Part shown: piece after piece, positions 5,718-15,072 of the stretch | Layout of the letters: each line of letters starts with the position of its first letter | Numbering within the stretch: the first letter of the stretch is position 1 | Assembly (NCBI GenBank): GCA_030608385.1 | Contig: JAUWEG010000007.1 | Coordinates: forward strand, 1-46,020 | Length of the DNA stretch: 46,020 nt | Reading direction: 5' to 3' | Origin: Candidatus Heimdallarchaeota archaeon | GTDB lineage: Archaea; Asgardarchaeota; Heimdallarchaeia; Heimdallarchaeales; Heimdallarchaeaceae | Program-made: the position numbers and the translations under genes | The notes under the pieces: generated by a model | What the model saw: only the letters and a program-made list of their open reading frames with translations | Told to the model about the DNA's origin: nothing | Databases searched by the model: none

Positions 5718-6587
5718 TTGAAAACTAGTAAATTAATATGTTTGACAATAATCCTTACATTCATGATAGCTCCAGCAACTAATCATCCAGTGATACCTAC
5801 ACAGGGAGATTTTGAATTCACTGAATCATGGGACTACAAGGGAATAATTAACAGACAAAGTCACCGTATTACATATAGTCCTATCTATGGATTTGACCCA
5901 GATATGCTAAGAACATTCATCTATTGCTTAGATGATGCTAATGACAATGATACAGCCATTGATACCATTGTTGCCTTACATGGAATAAATCCACTTCGTA
6001 ATGCACCACTCCATTCTTTAATATTTGAATCGATAAGCATAGGTGCTGAATATGGATTCAATGTAAGTTCTGAGGCAGGTATGGAATGGGTTGATGTCGA
6101 ATATGATTCAGATGTGATTAATGCAAGTTCAAGTTCTTATGATCCAGCTATAGATGAAATTTATAGTGCTGTTGTGCTTAAAACAATATATGCATTACCA
6201 GTATTATATGATAATATTACCCATCCTGTAAATCTTGCTTTTCCAGTTCATATTGCTAATTTTGTCACCCAAACTGGAATAGTAGGCCATTGGAGACAAA
6301 TAAATAAAGATAAGACTGTTATAAATGGTAATTTTACTACCTTTGGAGCAGATAATCCAATCTTTACTGGACCTGTGAATGAGACAGATCCGACAAATTA
6401 TGCTTATCCTGAAGATCAATGGTGGCCACAATTTAATGTTACAGTTGCTCAAAATGTGGAAAGAACTTCTCTTCCTCGAACACATAGTTTCCAGGTTAAT
6501 TTTCCATTCACAACAATCGTTGCATCTTTTGCACTTGTTCTTGTGATATTTACAATTGTTAAGAAAAACAGGAGGAAAACAAGATGA
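5718..6587 (+). CDS. Secreted, C-terminally anchored protein, paralogue 1 (function unknown)
   Basis: I do not recognise a named family. The 289-residue protein starts with TTG, supported by GGTGG seven bases upstream. It begins with a basic segment and hydrophobic stretch (MKTSKLICLTIILTFMIAP), a signal peptide. It ends with a hydrophobic helix of about 20 residues and a basic tail (KKNRRKTR), so most of it should face outside. Several N-x-S/T sequons (NITH, NFTT, NETD, NVTV) suggest a glycosylated surface protein. The segment NGNFTTFGADNPI recurs in the next gene as LGNFTTFGASDPI, and both mature N-termini carry a W-D-[YF] segment, so the two are tandem paralogues. It overlaps the next gene (ATGA) and is divergent from the ABC exporter. 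Confidence 0.75.
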   Translation: MKTSKLICLTIILTFMIAPATNHPVIPTQGDFEFTESWDYKGIINRQSHRITYSPIYGFDPDMLRTFIYCLDDANDNDTAIDTIVALHGINPLRNAPLHSLIFESISIGAEYGFNVSSEAGMEWVDVEYDSDVINASSSSYDPAIDEIYSAVVLKTIYALPVLYDNITHPVNLAFPVHIANFVTQTGIVGHWRQINKDKTVINGNFTTFGADNPIFTGPVNETDPTNYAYPEDQWWPQFNVTVAQNVERTSLPRTHSFQVNFPFTTIVASFALVLVIFTIVKKNRRKTR

Positions 6588-7369
6588 GAAAAATCACTCT
6601 ATTCATAGTAACTCTAATGGTTACCTCTTTATTCATGTTATCATTCAACAATTCAATCAACGTTACTGCTCAAGAAACTGAAGATGAAAATTGGGATTTT
6701 ACAGGTACAATGAGAATTACAAGTGATCAAAAGAGAATTCTAGTCTTTAATCCAGTTGACCATGGATATAATGAGTCATATGGTGATTTTACAACACCTA
6801 TGCTCTATATGGACGTCATGGGTTATGATACGAATGAAGATGGGGAAATGGACATATATTATGGATTTTATGGCACCTCTAGTCTTTTCGATTTAACCCA
6901 TATCAACTATACAACTATGAGTAATTTATTGGTTGTGAAAGTGTTTGCAAAATGGAGTTTAAGGATACCCGAAAGTTCACCTTTGAGTTGGGAAGTTCTC
7001 TATTATCCAGATCCGTTTTACAATGAGATTGCTTTTAATTTTATTCATAAAATTCCAATTTACTATGTGAATCTTACAAAAGCTGAAGGCGTTAATCTTC
7101 AGTTCAAAATTGAACTAGGGTTAAATTATACATTAGGTAATTTTACTACCTTTGGAGCAAGTGATCCAATAGTTCCATCAATGCCAACGTTTCCTGGGTA
7201 TAATGTTTCTGTTCCAGTGTTTACAGCTAATTTACCTATTAGCGAAATTGTAGTATCACCCTTCTTCTCAGATCCTCTAACCTATGTGACAATTGTTACA
7301 ATGTTTTTCTTCTTTGGTTATTTTGTTAAGAAGAGGGGAAAAAGAACGAATAAAAAGAACAGCTCTTGA
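6584..7369 (+). CDS. Secreted, C-terminally anchored protein, paralogue 2 (function unknown)
   Basis: This 261-residue protein has the same plan as its upstream neighbour. A signal peptide (MRKITLFIVTLMVTSLFMLS) is followed by an extracellular region rich in N-x-S/T sequons (NESY, NYTT, NLTK, NYTL, NFTT, NVSV), then a C-terminal membrane helix and a basic tail. An acidic segment, DTNEDGEMDIYYGF, near residues 83-96 resembles a short calcium-binding loop; that reading is only a suggestion. The ATG overlaps the previous stop as ATGA, and GGAGG at 6571-6575 is well placed, so the pair is co-translated. A T-rich tract follows the gene. No family can be named. Confidence 0.75.
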   Translation: MRKITLFIVTLMVTSLFMLSFNNSINVTAQETEDENWDFTGTMRITSDQKRILVFNPVDHGYNESYGDFTTPMLYMDVMGYDTNEDGEMDIYYGFYGTSSLFDLTHINYTTMSNLLVVKVFAKWSLRIPESSPLSWEVLYYPDPFYNEIAFNFIHKIPIYYVNLTKAEGVNLQFKIELGLNYTLGNFTTFGASDPIVPSMPTFPGYNVSVPVFTANLPISEIVVSPFFSDPLTYVTIVTMFFFFGYFVKKRGKRTNKKNSS

Positions 7370-7417: not shown

Positions 7418-8098
7418 ATGATAGGATTATCTTACTTTGCTTCTATATTGTTAATCTCAATTTTCAGCTTAGTAATAGCAATTTTAATTATAATACCAAA
7501 CATCTTTAGAATCAAACAATATATTTGGTTAAGCTTGAAAATATTACTCATAGTAATTTGTGCAATTCTGGTAATCTTATTTGTAGAGGTAAAAATAGAC
7601 GCTTATTACTTTCTAGGAAGCTTTTTTGGTGTTGGATTTCTGATTAAGGGAATACTTATGTCTAATCGATTAAGTTTTGTTGTTTTTCTATTAAGTTTTA
7701 TGTCTTTTTCGTTTGTATTTTTGTCTATTGGCAATGTAATTATGTTTGTTTTCTGTCTCTGTTTTTCCTATCTCTTCATAATTGGCATAACTGCCTTTAG
7801 TTTATATGACTTAAAAGCTAAAGAAACGATTATGGAAGGTAGCAAAAGATTTCAAACTGTAAGTTTTATAACTTTACTTACTTTCCCAGTGATTACAGTA
7901 TACATACTTTATTTCCTGTCTGAGAATCAAGTGATTTGGATTGAGAAAACATCATTCTTCGATTTGTTCTACAAGAACAATGATGCAATTACTTTCCTGA
8001 TTATAGGAATTATCTTTTTACTAACAGTAACATTTGTGTTCGTATTAGATTTACATGCTCTAAATAAGAAAAGGATAGATGAACCATGGTATTCTTAA
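7418..8098 (+). CDS. Polytopic membrane protein, NuoJ-like (complex I subunit 6 type)
   Basis: This 226-residue protein is almost entirely membrane helices (about six). Position and helix layout fit a NuoJ-type subunit: the first helix is followed by a polar turn (PNIFRIKQ), a second helix, a short acidic loop (VEVKIDA) and a glycine-containing third helix (FLGSFFGVGFLIKG). It is the first gene of a tightly overlapping set with K-, L- and N-like genes, the order seen in nuo operons (J-K-L-M-N) minus M. Residue identity to canonical NuoJ is low, so the family call depends largely on context. It overlaps the next gene by 13 bases. Confidence 0.5.
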   Translation: MIGLSYFASILLISIFSLVIAILIIIPNIFRIKQYIWLSLKILLIVICAILVILFVEVKIDAYYFLGSFFGVGFLIKGILMSNRLSFVVFLLSFMSFSFVFLSIGNVIMFVFCLCFSYLFIIGITAFSLYDLKAKETIMEGSKRFQTVSFITLLTFPVITVYILYFLSENQVIWIEKTSFFDLFYKNNDAITFLIIGIIFLLTVTFVFVLDLHALNKKRIDEPWYS

Positions 8099-8367
8099 GT
8101 TATCTAATTGCTCTGAGTCTCATTTGTTTCTGTTTAGGCTTGCTGCTATTAATATTCTCAAAATCGAAACTTCAAATGAATATGAGTTTTATCTTTCTCT
8201 TTTTATCAGGTATTTTTCTCATATCTAGTTCTATTATGAGTGCAGATACTGTTTTATTCTTCTTATTGGGCTTAGTTACAATTACTATAATCTTGGCTTT
8301 TCATTTCAGAGATCAGTTATTATCGAATATTCATGTAGAAGCAACAAGGAGAGAGGAAATTGAATAA
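8086..8367 (+). CDS. Small three-helix membrane protein, NuoK-like
   Basis: The 93-residue product has three predicted helices and a charged C-terminal tail (HVEATRREEIE). Its length and topology match NuoK/MrpC. It lies between a J-like and an L-like gene, as NuoK does. The two membrane glutamates of canonical NuoK (in the GIE and AAEA segments) are not seen: the second helix reads FIFLFLSGIFLIS and the third LGLVTITIILAF. If the call is right, the subunit has lost the residues normally needed for proton transfer. Confidence 0.5.
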   Translation: MVFLSYLIALSLICFCLGLLLLIFSKSKLQMNMSFIFLFLSGIFLISSSIMSADTVLFFLLGLVTITIILAFHFRDQLLSNIHVEATRREEIE

Positions 8368-10306
8368 CATCACTGTCTTACTAATTGCTCAAGTTTCGAT
8401 TTTGATTGGTTTACCCATATTTAGACGTTTATTAGTGTTTTCAGATAACGATAAGATTAGAGTAAGAAAAATTTATTCAAGTATTGTGTCTCTTTCCTTA
8501 GCTGGATTCTCTATTATTATATTTGCACTTACCATACATTATCTGAATGCAAATGCTTTTTCAAACCTAACAGAGGAAATAACTTTATTTTCCATATCTG
8601 GATATAATTTCGCTCTCGGATTTCAATTAACTCAAATCCGTGTTCTTCTGTTTGTAGGCATTACTTCTGCTGTTGCTTTGATAAATTTCTATTTGGTATG
8701 GAGTCAGGAGAAATGGACTATTGACCAAGTAGACAGAATCTCTATTTACTCAGTGATTTCTATTCTAATTATCTTATCTCCAAACTTCTTTCAATTGCTG
8801 TTTTTCATAATTGTGGCTGATCTAGTTTTAATTGAACTATTGTACAGTTTGAATCAAGAAGAAAGTAAGCAGAAGAACTTGAAGATAATGACTGCTTCAT
8901 TTGGTGTTGGAGATTTCCTGATTTGTACAGCATTCATAATACTTATCAGAAGATCAAAAAGTTTTGATTTTGACACTATTTTGAGTGATATTCAGTACAA
9001 ATTTTTCATTTTTAAACCATATTTTATTGTTCTCTGTTGTTTGTTTCTTCTAGGTATATTAGCAAAAAGCTCATTGTTCCCATTTCACAGCTGGCTACCT
9101 AATATTTGTTCTAAAGAATCTACATGGAAATTTAACCCAATAATGATCAATATTGTTCTTGGAATATCACTAATCTTTATTTCCCCAATATACAAGTTAC
9201 TTGTATCAGTACCAAATTATTATGCATGGTATGGTATTATATTTTCTGTAATTGCAACAATTTTTGCTATATTTCTGGCAAAGGAATTTGAAAAACAGAT
9301 TCTAGTTTTCTCTTCTTCTATAGGTTTGTTATTAATTTCAATTGGAAGCGGAAATCTGTCAAGTGCTTTTCAGCTCTTGATGATGTTGCCTTTTGCTTTT
9401 CTTGGTCTTGTGATTCTTTCATCAAAATCTATAAAGATCCACATAGATTCTCCTACTGATCAAAGAAGTAAAAAAATCCTCAGATCAATAGCTAATATTT
9501 TCATTGTTACAATTATTATGGTTTCAATAATTTCAGTTATTCCTTTTAGCAGTAATTTACTTACTTTGGGTTATCTGTTCACTTCTAATATTGTAGATTT
9601 GAGTCTTCTTGTTTACATTTTATCCATTGGTTCAATTTTGGGTATAACTTTAATTTGTATTCAAATAAGTTGGAAATATTTCAAACAAAATCTCTTCAAG
9701 AAACTAAAATTTTCAGAGTTGTTTCCACTTATAATGATTCTAGTTTTCCTATCAGCAAACAGCGTTCTCTATCCTTCATTTAACATTTTAAATCCATTTT
9801 CATTACCTCTTAATTTCTCTCAGGAAAACCTTTCCATTGCTCTTATCCCGATTTTTGTGGGATGGTTTGTTATACTTGCTTCATACATTGTTATTGAGTC
9901 ATTTGCAGAAAAAGTTTCAATATTTATCAATAATTTTTCAACAAAGATTCAAGGAAAATTGCGTAAAATTTACTATTTCGAATTTATTTTCTCACCGATA
10001 AATTGGGTAAATGTTAAAATCGTAATTCCATCATCAGTCTGGTTTTATGAAAATGTGATCAGAGATTTTATTTACAAGGTTATTATAGTCAGTATCTTCA
10101 AATTTTTCTTCTATTTAGTAAACCTTGTTAAGAACTTTGTAAATAATGTTGCAGTTCCACGAACTGTAAATTTCTTTAAGAGAAGCTCTCAATTTATTCA
10201 AAGCTTGGAAAGTGCTAAACTAAAAACACAGCTACTTTACATAATCCTAGGACTTGGGATAATGTTTGTTATTACAATTGCTCTTTATGCTGGAGGTATA
10301 ATCTGA
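8360..10306 (+). CDS. NuoL-like antiporter subunit of a complex I-type membrane arm
   Basis: This 648-residue membrane protein starts with TTG behind GGAGAGAGG. It carries several NuoL landmarks. These are an intramembrane glutamate in VLIELLYSLNQEE, then FGVGDF (compare NRVGDF), then LAKSSLFPFHSWLPN, which keeps the lysine and the PFHxWLP motif. A long amphipathic C-terminal region (about residues 520-615) ends with a final helix, as in the lateral helix of NuoL. The usual histidine-containing helix (HAATMV) after the WLP motif is not recognisable; the region reads KFNPIMINIVLG. It sits in an operon with J-, K- and N-like genes, with an 8-base overlap upstream and TGATG coupling downstream. 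Confidence 0.72.
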   Translation: MNNITVLLIAQVSILIGLPIFRRLLVFSDNDKIRVRKIYSSIVSLSLAGFSIIIFALTIHYLNANAFSNLTEEITLFSISGYNFALGFQLTQIRVLLFVGITSAVALINFYLVWSQEKWTIDQVDRISIYSVISILIILSPNFFQLLFFIIVADLVLIELLYSLNQEESKQKNLKIMTASFGVGDFLICTAFIILIRRSKSFDFDTILSDIQYKFFIFKPYFIVLCCLFLLGILAKSSLFPFHSWLPNICSKESTWKFNPIMINIVLGISLIFISPIYKLLVSVPNYYAWYGIIFSVIATIFAIFLAKEFEKQILVFSSSIGLLLISIGSGNLSSAFQLLMMLPFAFLGLVILSSKSIKIHIDSPTDQRSKKILRSIANIFIVTIIMVSIISVIPFSSNLLTLGYLFTSNIVDLSLLVYILSIGSILGITLICIQISWKYFKQNLFKKLKFSELFPLIMILVFLSANSVLYPSFNILNPFSLPLNFSQENLSIALIPIFVGWFVILASYIVIESFAEKVSIFINNFSTKIQGKLRKIYYFEFIFSPINWVNVKIVIPSSVWFYENVIRDFIYKVIIVSIFKFFFYLVNLVKNFVNNVAVPRTVNFFKRSSQFIQSLESAKLKTQLLYIILGLGIMFVITIALYAGGII

Positions 10307-11802
10307 TGAGTTATCCTCTCTCATTCTTATACGATTTCCTACCTCTTGAAATTCTTCTACTAGGAATCATCTTAATTATCAGTTTAGGGTCATTCTCTTC
10401 CAAGATTATCAGAAAATTTCCATTTCTTATGACAAGGATGAGAATTGTTTATGGTTACATTGCACTTCTTTCAAGTATTATTGCTGTTATTGTGTATAGC
10501 TACTTATACACCCCCTTAGATAGTAATTATGTAATTGCTTTTAATTTGACCATAACAGCTTTTACTTCGGGACTATTTTATGCAGTTTCATTTGCTATCA
10601 TTATTGGGATTTTCTTATCTATTGTTGAAATAGAGTTGAAATTTAGGAAAAGCTATATGCTTTTTGTCTCTTTGCTTTTAATAGAATCTAGTATCATATT
10701 CATAACTGCTGCAAATTCACTGGTGTTCATTTTCTTTGGTTTTGTATTAGTTTTTACTGGAATGAATTTCTTTATAAGAAACTTCACAACAACAATGCCC
10801 AATAAAAAGGAATCCTTCATCGGAAACTATCTAACTTTAAGTAGCTTAGCTCTATCTTTGTTGTTTATTGGTTTTGCAGCTCATTCTCTCTCAGGAAATT
10901 CCTTTATATTGTCAATAGAAAACACCACTTTACGTCTCTGGGAGTTAATAAGCGAGATATTCATTCTATCTGGATTATTGGTTCTAGTTGGGGGTCCTCC
11001 TTTTCACTTTATCTTTTTTGAATCGGAAAATGAGAAATTTAATGCAATCACACAAATAATGCTTTCCGTTCAGAAAGGTTTGACCTTAGCTTTCTTAATC
11101 AAATATACTTTAACAATTGCTGAATCATCATTTTCAATAGTTTTAGTTTGGTTATTCACTGTTTGTGGTGCTATCTATGTTCTTTGGGGAGTCTTAGCTT
11201 CCATAACGGTAAAAAGATTGCAGAAATTAGTACACTATATAAGTATCATATTTGTGGGAATAATACTTCTGATTTTATCTGATTTATTTTCTCCGATCCT
11301 AACAGAAGAATTGATAAATCTAACTCTAAAAACTGCATTTTACGGTGTACTGGCATTTATTCTTTCGTTAACATTTTCTATCTCATCAATAGGTGTAATT
11401 TCAAAGGGTTTCAAATCAGACGAAATACAAATTTTAAGAGAAGTTGGAAGATATTCTATTTCTCAATTCTTTATAATGGTACTTAATGTCCTAGTGATGT
11501 TTGCTGCACCTTCATCAATACTTCTCGTCTCTCAGAAAATTGTTTTTCCTGATTTCTTCTCGCCAAGAATGTATGTTACAGCTGTGATTCTTCTTTTAGG
11601 TGTGGTTTTTTCATTAGTCTATCTTATTAGGTTGTTAAGATCAATCTTCTTTATTCCAGTTCAGAGAAGTCAAGAGTTTTCTTCACCAGAACCAGCAGCG
11701 TTTATAGGCTCTTTTATTTCTCTAATTCTTATAGTTGCGGTGATGATTTTTATGAAACAATTCTTAATTTTCTGCAGTTTGATTGGAATAAATTTAGTTT
11801 AG
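10306..11802 (+). CDS. NuoN-like antiporter subunit (divergent)
   Basis: The product is a 498-residue protein with about 13-14 membrane helices. The segment GGPPFHFIFFES corresponds to the PFHFWxPDVYE motif of NuoN, and a later lysine (SVQKGLTLAF) matches a conserved one. In place of the transmembrane glutamate (GLEL) the sequence reads FFGFVLVF. The lysine usually just before PFH is replaced by a hydrophobic stretch (LLVLVGGPPFH). The proton-path residues therefore look degenerate. The ATG overlaps the previous stop (TGATG). A NuoM or Mrp-type assignment is possible but fits the PFHF motif less well. Confidence 0.6.
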   Translation: MSYPLSFLYDFLPLEILLLGIILIISLGSFSSKIIRKFPFLMTRMRIVYGYIALLSSIIAVIVYSYLYTPLDSNYVIAFNLTITAFTSGLFYAVSFAIIIGIFLSIVEIELKFRKSYMLFVSLLLIESSIIFITAANSLVFIFFGFVLVFTGMNFFIRNFTTTMPNKKESFIGNYLTLSSLALSLLFIGFAAHSLSGNSFILSIENTTLRLWELISEIFILSGLLVLVGGPPFHFIFFESENEKFNAITQIMLSVQKGLTLAFLIKYTLTIAESSFSIVLVWLFTVCGAIYVLWGVLASITVKRLQKLVHYISIIFVGIILLILSDLFSPILTEELINLTLKTAFYGVLAFILSLTFSISSIGVISKGFKSDEIQILREVGRYSISQFFIMVLNVLVMFAAPSSILLVSQKIVFPDFFSPRMYVTAVILLLGVVFSLVYLIRLLRSIFFIPVQRSQEFSSPEPAAFIGSFISLILIVAVMIFMKQFLIFCSLIGINLV

Positions 11803-11838
11803 TTATTTCGACAATGCAATAAGTTTTTGAATATAGAT

Positions 11839-12831
11839 ATGCGAATCAACTTGATTAGAGTGACTTCTAATAAGCTAAATCTTCCACTTGAGGTAGATCA
11901 AATAAATTCTTACTTATCTGATTTAAGAAATCATAGTCCTTATGATGACGAAATCAACGATTTAATTGATCATATCCTTCAGAATGGTGGTAAAAGAATT
12001 AGGCCCTTAATCTGCCTTCTTTCATTTGAGATGATATCAAATGAGCAGCGTAATGATACAAGTTTAGCTGCAGCTTGTTCTCTAGAAGTTATTCATAATG
12101 CATCATTGATAATTGATGATATTTTCGATAAAGATATTTATCGAAGAAAAGAAAAATCTTTCTACTTGAAGTATTCCACTTTCGCTGCGCTTTCAATTTC
12201 TTATTCCCTAAGTAGTTTAGCATTAAGCTTAGCTTCCAAAACTAACGTTATTGAAATAGTTGATGAGTTAATTAAAGCAATTCATACACTATCAACATCA
12301 TTATTTTTAGAGCAAAAATTCCGGTCTGGAAAGAATAAGATGACTCAAGAGGAGGCGCTTCAGCTAATTGATAGAAAAACTTCAAGTTTATTTGAAGCAG
12401 CCTCTGTTATAGGCGTTCTTCTGGGAAATAGCTCAAAAGAAGATAGAGAATCTATGAAGCTCTTTGGTAAATTATTTGGAAGGGCATTTCAATTAAAAGA
12501 TGATTATTTCTCTTTGACTTCTGAGCAGAATGATTTGGGGAAATCAGGTGTTTGGACAGATATTTCGAACCGTATTCAAACCTATATAGTTTTAGAAGCA
12601 ATGGATCTGGTCTCTCCTAGTGAAAAGGAAATTTTAGATGATTATTATATTGATAAGAAAGACTTTCCAATTGAAAAAATTAAATCAATACTTGTAAATT
12701 CTGGAGCTCTTGAAATAGTAAAGAATCAGATATCTCAGTATATTAGTGAAGCAATTGCGATTCTAAATATGTTTTCCAAAAGTCCTTCAAGAGATAAATT
12801 AATCCAAATAACAAATCTTTTACAGATATAA
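11839..12831 (+). CDS. Polyprenyl diphosphate synthase (trans-isoprenyl type)
   Basis: This family condenses isopentenyl diphosphate onto an allylic primer, making the chains of archaeal lipids or quinones. ATG 11839 (MRINLIRVTS) is preferred to TTG 11827. Visible motifs are GGKRIRP (50-56), the first aspartate-rich motif DDIFD (93-97) followed by RR (102-103), and the second aspartate-rich region KDDYFS (220-225). The second motif lacks its third aspartate, and the usual G-x-P after RR is missing. The residue five before the first motif is Ala, a small side chain that permits long products (C20 or more). The gene lies 36 bases after the NuoN-like gene; supplying a quinone side chain is one possibility, geranylgeranyl diphosphate for lipids another. 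Confidence 0.82.
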   Translation: MRINLIRVTSNKLNLPLEVDQINSYLSDLRNHSPYDDEINDLIDHILQNGGKRIRPLICLLSFEMISNEQRNDTSLAAACSLEVIHNASLIIDDIFDKDIYRRKEKSFYLKYSTFAALSISYSLSSLALSLASKTNVIEIVDELIKAIHTLSTSLFLEQKFRSGKNKMTQEEALQLIDRKTSSLFEAASVIGVLLGNSSKEDRESMKLFGKLFGRAFQLKDDYFSLTSEQNDLGKSGVWTDISNRIQTYIVLEAMDLVSPSEKEILDDYYIDKKDFPIEKIKSILVNSGALEIVKNQISQYISEAIAILNMFSKSPSRDKLIQITNLLQI

Positions 12832-12842
12832 AAAAGAAGTAA

Positions 12843-12862
12843 GAATTAGTCACTTCTAATTC
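12843..12862. terminator. Short hairpin at the convergent end of the prenyl synthase and inositol phosphate synthase genes
   Basis: GAATTAG and CTAATTC form a perfect 7-bp stem with a 6-base loop. It overlaps the last codons of the minus-strand gene and lies 11 bases after the plus-strand stop. The stem is A/T-rich, so it could be a chance palindrome. Confidence 0.25.
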
Positions 12863-13919
12863 CTTGTATATATTCACTAAACCAAATATGTGCTGTATAT
12901 CTATCTGTTGTAACAGGAGGAGCCTTGAACCCATAAGCACAGATTGAACTTATCGGACCACTTCCTGCACGATTAATAGCTACTTTTGTTGCTCTAATTA
13001 CATCTACTAGGGTTCCCGCTCCGTTAGGACCATCTAATGTTTCTAACCTAATATCTATTTTAACTGGCATCTCCATGAATCCTTCCCCTCGTATCCAGAA
13101 ATGACCCACTCGTCTATTTCCTAAGAATTCTAAATAGTCTGATGTCCCACTTGCAAGATTTATATCATTGCCAAAAGATTGTTTAATAGCTCTTTCCTTT
13201 ACTTCACGTTTGTATTGTTTTCTATCATCATCAAGTGTATTCAGTGTTTCAAGCCCTCCGGCAACATCTAGTTGGTAAGTATCTTTTATGATAACTCCTT
13301 GTTCCCTTAGAACATCTAGAAATCCTTTATGAAGGACAGTTCCACCTGCTAAAGATTGTAAATCATCACCTAATACACATACATTCGCTTTCTTGAATTT
13401 TCTTGCCCATTCAGGGTCGTTAGCAATACTAGTTGGTGTACAATTTATGAATGCTACTTCTGCATCAAGAGCTGCTTGAGCATAAGTCTCAACGGCACTT
13501 TCTGCGCCTGAAGGAAGAGCACAAATAAGAATCTCGGCTCCTGAATCCTTTAATATTTCAGCAACATTTGCTTCTGGACCTTCTGCTACTACTATTACTT
13601 CGAGCAGATGTTTTGAAAGGCCATCCTTCACAGGTCCTTTGTGAACTTCAACATTAGTCTTTTCAACATTCACAAATTGGGGAGTACTATTGATTGGTGC
13701 AAATATAGCCTTTTCTAAGTCTTTTCCAACCTTATCAGCATCAACATCAAAGGCTGCAACAATTCGAATATTTTTAGCTTCATAACTACTGATTTTCGGA
13801 TAAAGAAGTTTTTCCTTTTTATCCTCGAAGATATTAAGATAATTAATACCTTGAAGTAAACCTGAAGCGATATTCCCGATACCAGCAATTGCTACTTTTA
13901 TAATGTCACTTTTCACCAT
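12846..13919 (-). CDS. myo-inositol-1-phosphate synthase paralogue lacking an active-site lysine
   Basis: The protein (357 residues) is homologous along its length to the synthase encoded just upstream: IAGIGNIASGLLQG at the NAD site, FDVDADKVGKDL, LDGPNGAGTLVDVIR and YGFKAPP. The family converts glucose 6-phosphate to inositol 1-phosphate in an NAD-dependent internal redox reaction. The conserved GDDIKSQ motif is GDDLQSL here (Q188 in place of Lys), and GNCAS is GNIAS. Lysines further on (ATKVA, GFKAPP) are kept. The enzyme may be inactive, act on another substrate, or be a regulatory partner. ATG 13919 follows GAGGTG. GTG 13925 is an alternative. It lies immediately downstream of the canonical copy and is surely co-transcribed. 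Confidence 0.85.
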   Translation of the reverse strand: MVKSDIIKVAIAGIGNIASGLLQGINYLNIFEDKKEKLLYPKISSYEAKNIRIVAAFDVDADKVGKDLEKAIFAPINSTPQFVNVEKTNVEVHKGPVKDGLSKHLLEVIVVAEGPEANVAEILKDSGAEILICALPSGAESAVETYAQAALDAEVAFINCTPTSIANDPEWARKFKKANVCVLGDDLQSLAGGTVLHKGFLDVLREQGVIIKDTYQLDVAGGLETLNTLDDDRKQYKREVKERAIKQSFGNDINLASGTSDYLEFLGNRRVGHFWIRGEGFMEMPVKIDIRLETLDGPNGAGTLVDVIRATKVAINRAGSGPISSICAYGFKAPPVTTDRYTAHIWFSEYIQGIRSD

Positions 13920-13926
13920 TAACACC

Positions 13927-15009
13927 TCAGTTAGTAATTTCTCCTCTTATGAATTTTTCAACGAGTTCTTTAGCTTCAGAATCTTTGATTTGTTCTGGTG
14001 GATGTTTAAAGAAATAGCTTGATACACCTATTAGAGGTCCACCTATATTTCTGTCTAAGGCAATTTTCAGAGATCTTACTACATCGATCATAACACCAGC
14101 ACTATTTGGTGAATCTTGCACACTAAGCTTTAATTGAGCAGTTATTGGTTGTTCTCCAAAATTCTTACCCTTCAACCAAAGATAGCAGATTTTTTCATCA
14201 TCTAGAAATGGAACATAGTCAGATGGACCAATTCTAGTAGGAACTTCATATGGTAACATACTTGTGACTGCTTCAGTTTTTGATATTCTCTTTGTAGTCA
14301 ATCTATATTCCTTTTTCATATTCTCAAAATCAGTGTTTCCACCAATATTCAATTGGAAGGTTTCATCCAGCTTAATTCCTCTGTCATGAGCTAGTGATAC
14401 AAGAACACGATGCAAAATTGTTGCTCCAAGCTGAGATTTTATATCATCTCCTGCAATTGGAATATTTTTATCCTTGAACTTTTGAGCCCATTCAGGCTTC
14501 GAAGCCAAAAACGCTGGAATCCCATTTGCAAAAGCAACATTAGCATCTAATGCAGCTTGTGCATATACTTTTGATGCTTCTTCACTTCCTACGGGAAGGA
14601 AGTTAATTAAAACATCAGCATTTGACTCCTTTAAAGTGTCTGCAATATTTATTGGCTGTACTTCTGAAGAGTCATAACAATGAAATGGTTCTATCATATG
14701 TGGTGCAACACCATCATGAATAGGTCCTGGTAAGACAGTTATTCCTTTATGAGGGACATCTGAAAACTTATTACAACAATTTGGACTTTGCCAAATAGCT
14801 TCAGAAATATCTTTACCAATCTTCTTAGTATTAACTTCAAAAGCAGCTACTACTTCAACATCTGAAATATGATACTCACCAAATTTAACATGCATAACTC
14901 CAGGTACAAAATCGTTCTCATCAGCGTTTTGGTAATATTCTAAACCTTGTACTAGAGCTGATGCACAGTTACCAAGACCAGCAATTGCTACTTTGACTTT
15001 TTTCGACAT
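13927..15009 (-). CDS. ino1: myo-inositol-1-phosphate synthase
   Basis: This 360-residue enzyme makes 1L-myo-inositol 1-phosphate from glucose 6-phosphate, the entry step for inositol phospholipids and related solutes in archaea. The short actinobacterial/archaeal form is evident: VAIAGLGNCASALVQGLEYY, PGVMHVKFGEYH, VLPGPIHDGVAPHM, AGDDIKSQLGATI with the active-site lysine at 191, DSPNSAGVMIDVVRS and SYFFKHPPEQ. ATG 15009 is chosen over GTG 15033 because GGGTGA lies five bases before it. It precedes the divergent paralogue with only a few bases between them. The epimerase gene is divergent across the 15010-15104 gap. Confidence 0.93.
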   Translation of the reverse strand: MSKKVKVAIAGLGNCASALVQGLEYYQNADENDFVPGVMHVKFGEYHISDVEVVAAFEVNTKKIGKDISEAIWQSPNCCNKFSDVPHKGITVLPGPIHDGVAPHMIEPFHCYDSSEVQPINIADTLKESNADVLINFLPVGSEEASKVYAQAALDANVAFANGIPAFLASKPEWAQKFKDKNIPIAGDDIKSQLGATILHRVLVSLAHDRGIKLDETFQLNIGGNTDFENMKKEYRLTTKRISKTEAVTSMLPYEVPTRIGPSDYVPFLDDEKICYLWLKGKNFGEQPITAQLKLSVQDSPNSAGVMIDVVRSLKIALDRNIGGPLIGVSSYFFKHPPEQIKDSEAKELVEKFIRGEITN

Positions 15010-15072
15010 GAGTTCACCCTTTTCTTCAAACACGAAAATTCATTTGAACTAATTGAGCAAAGGAACGTTATG

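Follow-up and report, generated by a model that had tools for sequence, protein, structure and literature searches.

The locus described here raises the question of whether a set of membrane proteins arranged like part of complex I, J-K-L-N, still works as a proton pump or has been put to another use. The window, by which we mean the whole stretch of DNA analysed, is the entire contig C126 (46,020 bases) of a 2.77-Mb metagenome-assembled genome (MAG) that is 89% complete, and it was compared with MAGs of Candidatus Heimdallarchaeota or Asgard archaea, among them AB_125, and with the complete chromosome of Ca. Heimdallarchaeum endolithica (CP084167). A sequence-only reading of the window had reported four overlapping genes in nuo order, without NuoM and without any soluble subunit nearby. 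Both points were borne out: the J-K-L-N open reading frames (ORFs; 7418-11802) overlap successively by 13, 8 and 1 nt, no NuoM, NuoH, NuoA or soluble or redox subunit adjoins them among the flanking genes inspected, and none of the peripheral-arm genes B, C, D and I lies near them. That reading missed two surface-protein genes, S1 and S2, immediately upstream (5718-7369), which make J-K-L-N part of a six-gene block, S1-S2-J-K-L-N, flanked by an ABC-exporter pair, a polyprenyl diphosphate synthase (PPS) and two inositol-phosphate synthases (IPS). The features are:

5718..6587, + strand: S1, surface protein, 289 aa (ORF; alignment of 16 genomes; hydropathy)
6584..7369, + strand: S2, surface protein, 261 aa, overlapping S1 by 4 nt (alignment)
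7418..8098, + strand: J-like protein, 226 aa, polytopic with about 6 transmembrane helices (TM), in the NuoJ position (alignment; synteny; weak NuoJ profile match)
8086..8367, + strand: K-like protein, 93 aa, 3 TM (alignment; top profile match canonical NuoK)
8360..10306, + strand: L-like protein, 648 aa, NuoL homologue with a C-terminal lateral-helix region (family and profile matches)
10306..11802, + strand: N-like protein, 498 aa, NuoN homologue (family and profile matches; tree)
11827..12831, + strand: PPS, 24 nt after N (PF00348, 5.5e-47)
12846..15033, - strand: two IPS-type genes, context outside the complex and a syntenic marker beside PPS

The two large subunits are recognizable by family searches, with L matching NdhF at 7.5e-11 and NCBIfam NDH-5 at 3e-13. 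By itself N matches NuoN weakly (7.5e-5, NCBIfam), and N-like orthologues pass the PF00361 cut-off with up to 47.6 bits. The assignments of J and K are weak by sequence and draw mainly on gene position: in profile-profile comparison J reached NuoJ at P = 0.0025 at best, and the best match of K was canonical NuoK at P = 0.00077. An AF2 model of J (pLDDT 67) gave no significant match in a PDB fold search.

Profile-profile comparisons also separate the possible sources of the large subunits. The L-like protein matches complex I NuoL at 9.5e-19 versus 6.3e-5 for the hydrogenase L, while the N-like protein matches NuoN at 1.2e-22 versus 8e-10 for complex I M and 1.7e-6 for hydrogenase M. When antiporter-type subunits are placed in one tree, N of the module clusters with the complex I NuoN of the order at 98/98; the module L sits on a very long branch and is not placed by the tree. 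Two genomes of the same order, G026 (L169) and G028 (L190), carry nuoH-J-K-L-M-N followed directly by the orthologous PPS, and in G028 the PPS is followed by the IPS2-IPS1 pair, as beside the module in the window. A looser arrangement, with L-M-N, PPS and IPS2-IPS1 on one contig, occurs in G023 (L163), and in genomes of family f4 PPS lies just ahead of nuoH. Because the same neighbourhood is found in sister families, and given the profile matches and the N tree, the module is shown, as far as homology and gene order can speak, to be a positional descendant of the ancestral Heimdallarchaeales complex I membrane-arm operon from which H and M have been lost. The G026 operon also encodes a 235-aa membrane-anchored protein between nuoL and nuoM (L169 9212-9919).

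In one Heimdallarchaeaceae genus, 20 of 21 genomes carry the block or some of its genes, and an altered form occurs in Ca. Heimdallarchaeum endolithica; beyond the family, searches returned nothing but weak matches to ordinary Nuo subunits. Within the genus, S2 and J were found in 20 of the 21 genomes and L in 19, the one genome without any block gene being 78% complete and the contig of the other genome without L stopping just after J. Wherever contigs allow, the order S1-S2-J-K-L-N-PPS recurs genus-wide with the same ABC pair and IPS flanks, S1 always standing upstream of S2-J-K-L-N, and this order is kept even where L identity is 27-28%. Ratios of dN/dS for the six block genes range from 0.11 to 0.43, compared with 0.05-0.11 for the PPS, inositol-phosphate synthase and ABC neighbours; those for hydrogenase H/J/K, between close genomes, are 0.04-0.13. 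Judged by these ratios, purifying selection persists on the block, although its neighbours are two to four times more strongly constrained, and these fast-evolving genes look functional.

The residues that form the proton path have been largely lost, and the losses are fixed across the genomes aligned. The K-like protein has no acid in the core of TM2 or TM3, both membrane glutamates of NuoK being gone in 16/16 genomes, as had been claimed from the window. In N, the TM5 Glu column is V/I in all 12 genomes, where FFGF(V/I)L replaces GxE(L/I) (read previously as FFGFVLVF for GLEL), and the TM7 Lys is likewise gone in 12/12 with PPFH kept, in agreement with the reported lack of a lysine before PFHF. 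The TM8 Lys column of N holds K in seven and R in five of the 12; most of these genomes lack the Lys at the TM12 column, and 9/12 have a charge close to it. The L-like protein was correctly described as retaining K, here K/R (K in 14, R in two of 16 genomes at the TM7 Lys column), together with the PFH motif (16/16), and as wanting the HAATMVK helix (absent in 16/16); its TM8 His and Lys, TM10-11 Lys and TM12 Lys are all gone, also in 16/16. The claim that L keeps the TM5 Glu was mistaken, since that column is I/F/L/V in all 16 genomes and an invariant Asp (D154) stands three residues beyond it instead. In L alone among the subunits, the TM5 acid may therefore have been displaced by about one helical turn. 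The sequence-only reading had named displacement of charges to nearby positions as a finding that would undo its case; this occurred for the TM5 acid of L but not elsewhere: the four columns to either side of the lost TM5 Glu and TM7 Lys of N (12 genomes), and of the lost TM10-11 and TM12 Lys of L, contain no charged residue (alignment with canonical subunits).

Coupled pumping by complex I is abolished when the ion pair buried between TM5 and TM7 is mutated (PMC11496545), and the residues examined here are the ion-pair and axis residues on which that pumping depends (PMC11496545, PMC9802314). Redox-driven pumping by the module is, on the residues and genes present, very unlikely, because there is no H (the quinone and docking subunit) and the axis is broken in both large subunits and in K. 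Antiporter subunits taken in isolation, however, still conduct when their TM5 Glu is neutralised (PMC11496545), and L keeps the TM7 K/R, the PFH His and the displaced TM5 Asp, while N keeps the TM8 K/R (12/12), so that some passage of protons or ions through these residual charges of L and N is conceivable.

The genes at the head of the block point to the cell surface. S1 has a hydrophobic N-terminal signal, a TM helix at its C-terminus (263-281) and seven N-glycosylation sequons, as judged by hydropathy and sequence; S2, which likewise begins with a hydrophobic signal, combines a beta-rich ectodomain with a C-terminal membrane helix and nine sequons, and the two are paralogues (hhalign 1.2e-14). 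Pfam and NCBIfam searches of S1, S2 and J gave no useful match, and a PDB fold search with the low-confidence AF2 model of S2 (pLDDT 65) gave no significant one.

In Ca. Heimdallarchaeum endolithica (G022), the block consists of S1, an enlarged S2, J, K, a 151-aa ORF, N and PPS. This ORF, with a single TM helix at its end, occupies the position of L, and the locus holds no gene of the size of L. Its collinear resemblance to the C-terminus of L hints at a surviving lateral-helix tail, which we do not claim, as 56 of 2000 hydropathy-preserving shuffles (2.8%) score as high. The S2 of this genome (L080 8245-9594) carries an insertion of ~190 aa resembling an extracellular repeat domain, and transposase-like fragments lie upstream of S1 (L080 5680-6626), where the other genus has the ABC pair.

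The suggestion that the four genes may encode a membrane complex that does not pump, or is coupled in some other way, fits the genus-fixed residue loss, the absence of an associated redox or quinone module and the selection maintained on the block. We think it probable that this descendant of a complex I arm is now a non-redox, non-pumping membrane scaffold carrying S1/S2; the physical assembly of the six proteins, the loss of pumping and the scaffold role are all things that we infer. In the Heimdallarchaeaceae, the operon lost NuoM as well as NuoH, which serves for quinone binding and attachment; the S1 and S2 genes came to head it; and in K, L and N the charged residues along the proton axis decayed. 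The remaining J-K-N-L slice would then assemble as a scaffold that holds the S1/S2 ectodomains to the cell surface or sets their position there, with energy conservation presumably passing to a separate H-A-J-K-L-M group-4 [NiFe] hydrogenase. A more specific version, in which J-K-N-L became a platform for two paralogous ectodomain proteins in a non-redox surface complex by a stepwise path, from the intact operon of sister families through the eroded arm of the genus to the missing L antiporter core of Ca. H. endolithica, seems to us, platform and path taken together, evenly balanced between right and wrong. Overall, the results suggest that part of a respiratory engine was converted to another use in one Asgard family.

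The main rival to the scaffold is an ion-coupled surface machine, in which the charges left in L (D154, K237 and H243) and N (TM8 K/R and the PPFH His) would form a one-way conduction path and a proton or sodium motive force would drive a process in the S1/S2 ectodomains, as DabB drives DabA in DAB2 (PMC13144422). In its favour are the retained TM7 K/R of L (16/16), the invariant Asp at +3, the TM8 K/R of N (12/12) and the invariant PFH. We nonetheless consider it unlikely, as L has neither its middle (TM10-11) nor its terminal (TM12) Lys in any of 16 genomes, the TM8 residue of N is an Arg that would hardly titrate in 5/12, the alignments show no conserved continuous path, and Ca. H. endolithica has only the 151-aa ORF where L should be.

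The Heimdallarchaeaceae (f1) do encode a second nuo-like operon, the other finding that the sequence-only reading had said would count against it. This is a group-4 [NiFe] hydrogenase locus with H-A-J-K-L-M and no N (L030, L132, L133, L141 and L142), which agrees with the published account of the Heimdallarchaeum MBH operon (PMC8813620); its genes are on other contigs than the module, and its antiporter-type subunits keep the canonical charged residues. Profiles, the N tree and synteny rule out the module as a duplicate of this arm, so the two are not paralogous operons. The module could still dock on H-A-J-K-L-M as an accessory arm, for example by filling the missing N position, which would fit the lack of N in the hydrogenase locus and the single NuoH of each f1 genome tested, located in that locus. 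We judge such docking improbable: in the loci read the module is not co-located with the hydrogenase, it has its own J and K and an N that has lost its pumping residues, and it diverges much faster (between G000 and G007, module J/K/L/N are 28-38% identical versus 58-78% for hydrogenase J/K/H). Separately, an A-J-K-L-M-like cluster is represented in nine of nine family f6 genomes by its large L-type subunit. In both loci read (L137 8054-12704 and L138 8292-12933; G037 and G043) the cluster adjoins a gene resembling the large subunit of DNA polymerase D, and the TM5 Glu is missing in both large subunits (GFAIAS and SWVIIG). This cluster was rejected as the same system as the module, as it derives from a hydrogenase-type arm, and erosion of charged residues thus appears to have happened twice in the Heimdallarchaeia.

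A well-conserved orphan NuoB-C-D-I without membrane genes (L031 1105-3596; L166 8521-10991; L167; L168) invites the thought of a split complex I, paired with J-K-L-N at a distance. Both complex I-derived orphans occur in G000 and G022, and the orphan NuoD, in which Ni ligands are missing, clusters with that of complex I (100/100). As an obligate partner of the module the orphan set is unlikely because it is found in nine of 23 Heimdallarchaeaceae genomes, whereas the module is nearly universal; NuoD is also 80-90% conserved, which the module is not, and the docking subunits NuoH and NuoA are absent, leaving a split complex I a slim prospect. The genomes behind the apparent lack of further soluble partners are a single complete one and otherwise incomplete MAGs. 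Finally, fast divergence, relaxed constraint and the want of an L-sized gene in G022 might suggest a functionless, decaying pseudogene operon, but frames that stay open in about 20 genomes, dN/dS ratios well under 1 and the conservation of S1/S2 and of gene order make this highly improbable.

We found no published description of the module in the openly accessible papers searched, and its novelty is accordingly provisional. The module amounts to a natural experiment that can separate the structural parts of the complex I arm from those that serve pumping. It also bears on the respiratory history of the Heimdallarchaeia, for which electron transport chains have been inferred (PMC8813620, PMC10307638), and it warns that a verdict of "complex I present" drawn from genes of this kind would be mistaken.

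Among known systems, Mrp (CPA3) antiporters resemble the module in being multi-subunit assemblies of L-like, K-like and N/M-like membrane proteins with no redox arm; the module differs in its Nuo-like gene order, and no MrpE/F/G companions were seen in the conserved block. Mrp antiporters keep a charged axis. In DAB2 (DabA2-DabB2), the partner is a cytoplasmic carbonic anhydrase and DabB2 keeps other proton-path residues; that system is not known to include J, K or N. What the module shares with it is a NuoL-like subunit without redox subunits, from which key ion-pair motifs are missing (PMC13144422). The DabA carbonic anhydrase-like family had no match among the seven genes scanned at the locus, where the conserved neighbours are S1, S2, PPS and the ABC genes. 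The group-4 [NiFe] hydrogenase (MBH; PMC8813620) is found in the same genomes and has homologous antiporter-type subunits, but it occupies a separate locus, has canonical charges and no N, and shows far weaker profile similarity. There is also the membrane arm of respiratory complex I (NuoH/A/J/K/L/M/N; Fpo-type in archaea), with which the module has in common the J-K-L-N order, the homology of L and N, the C-terminal region of L and the neighbours seen in sister families, and from which it differs in having no H, A, M or peripheral arm, in the loss of its proton-axis residues and in the addition of two surface proteins.
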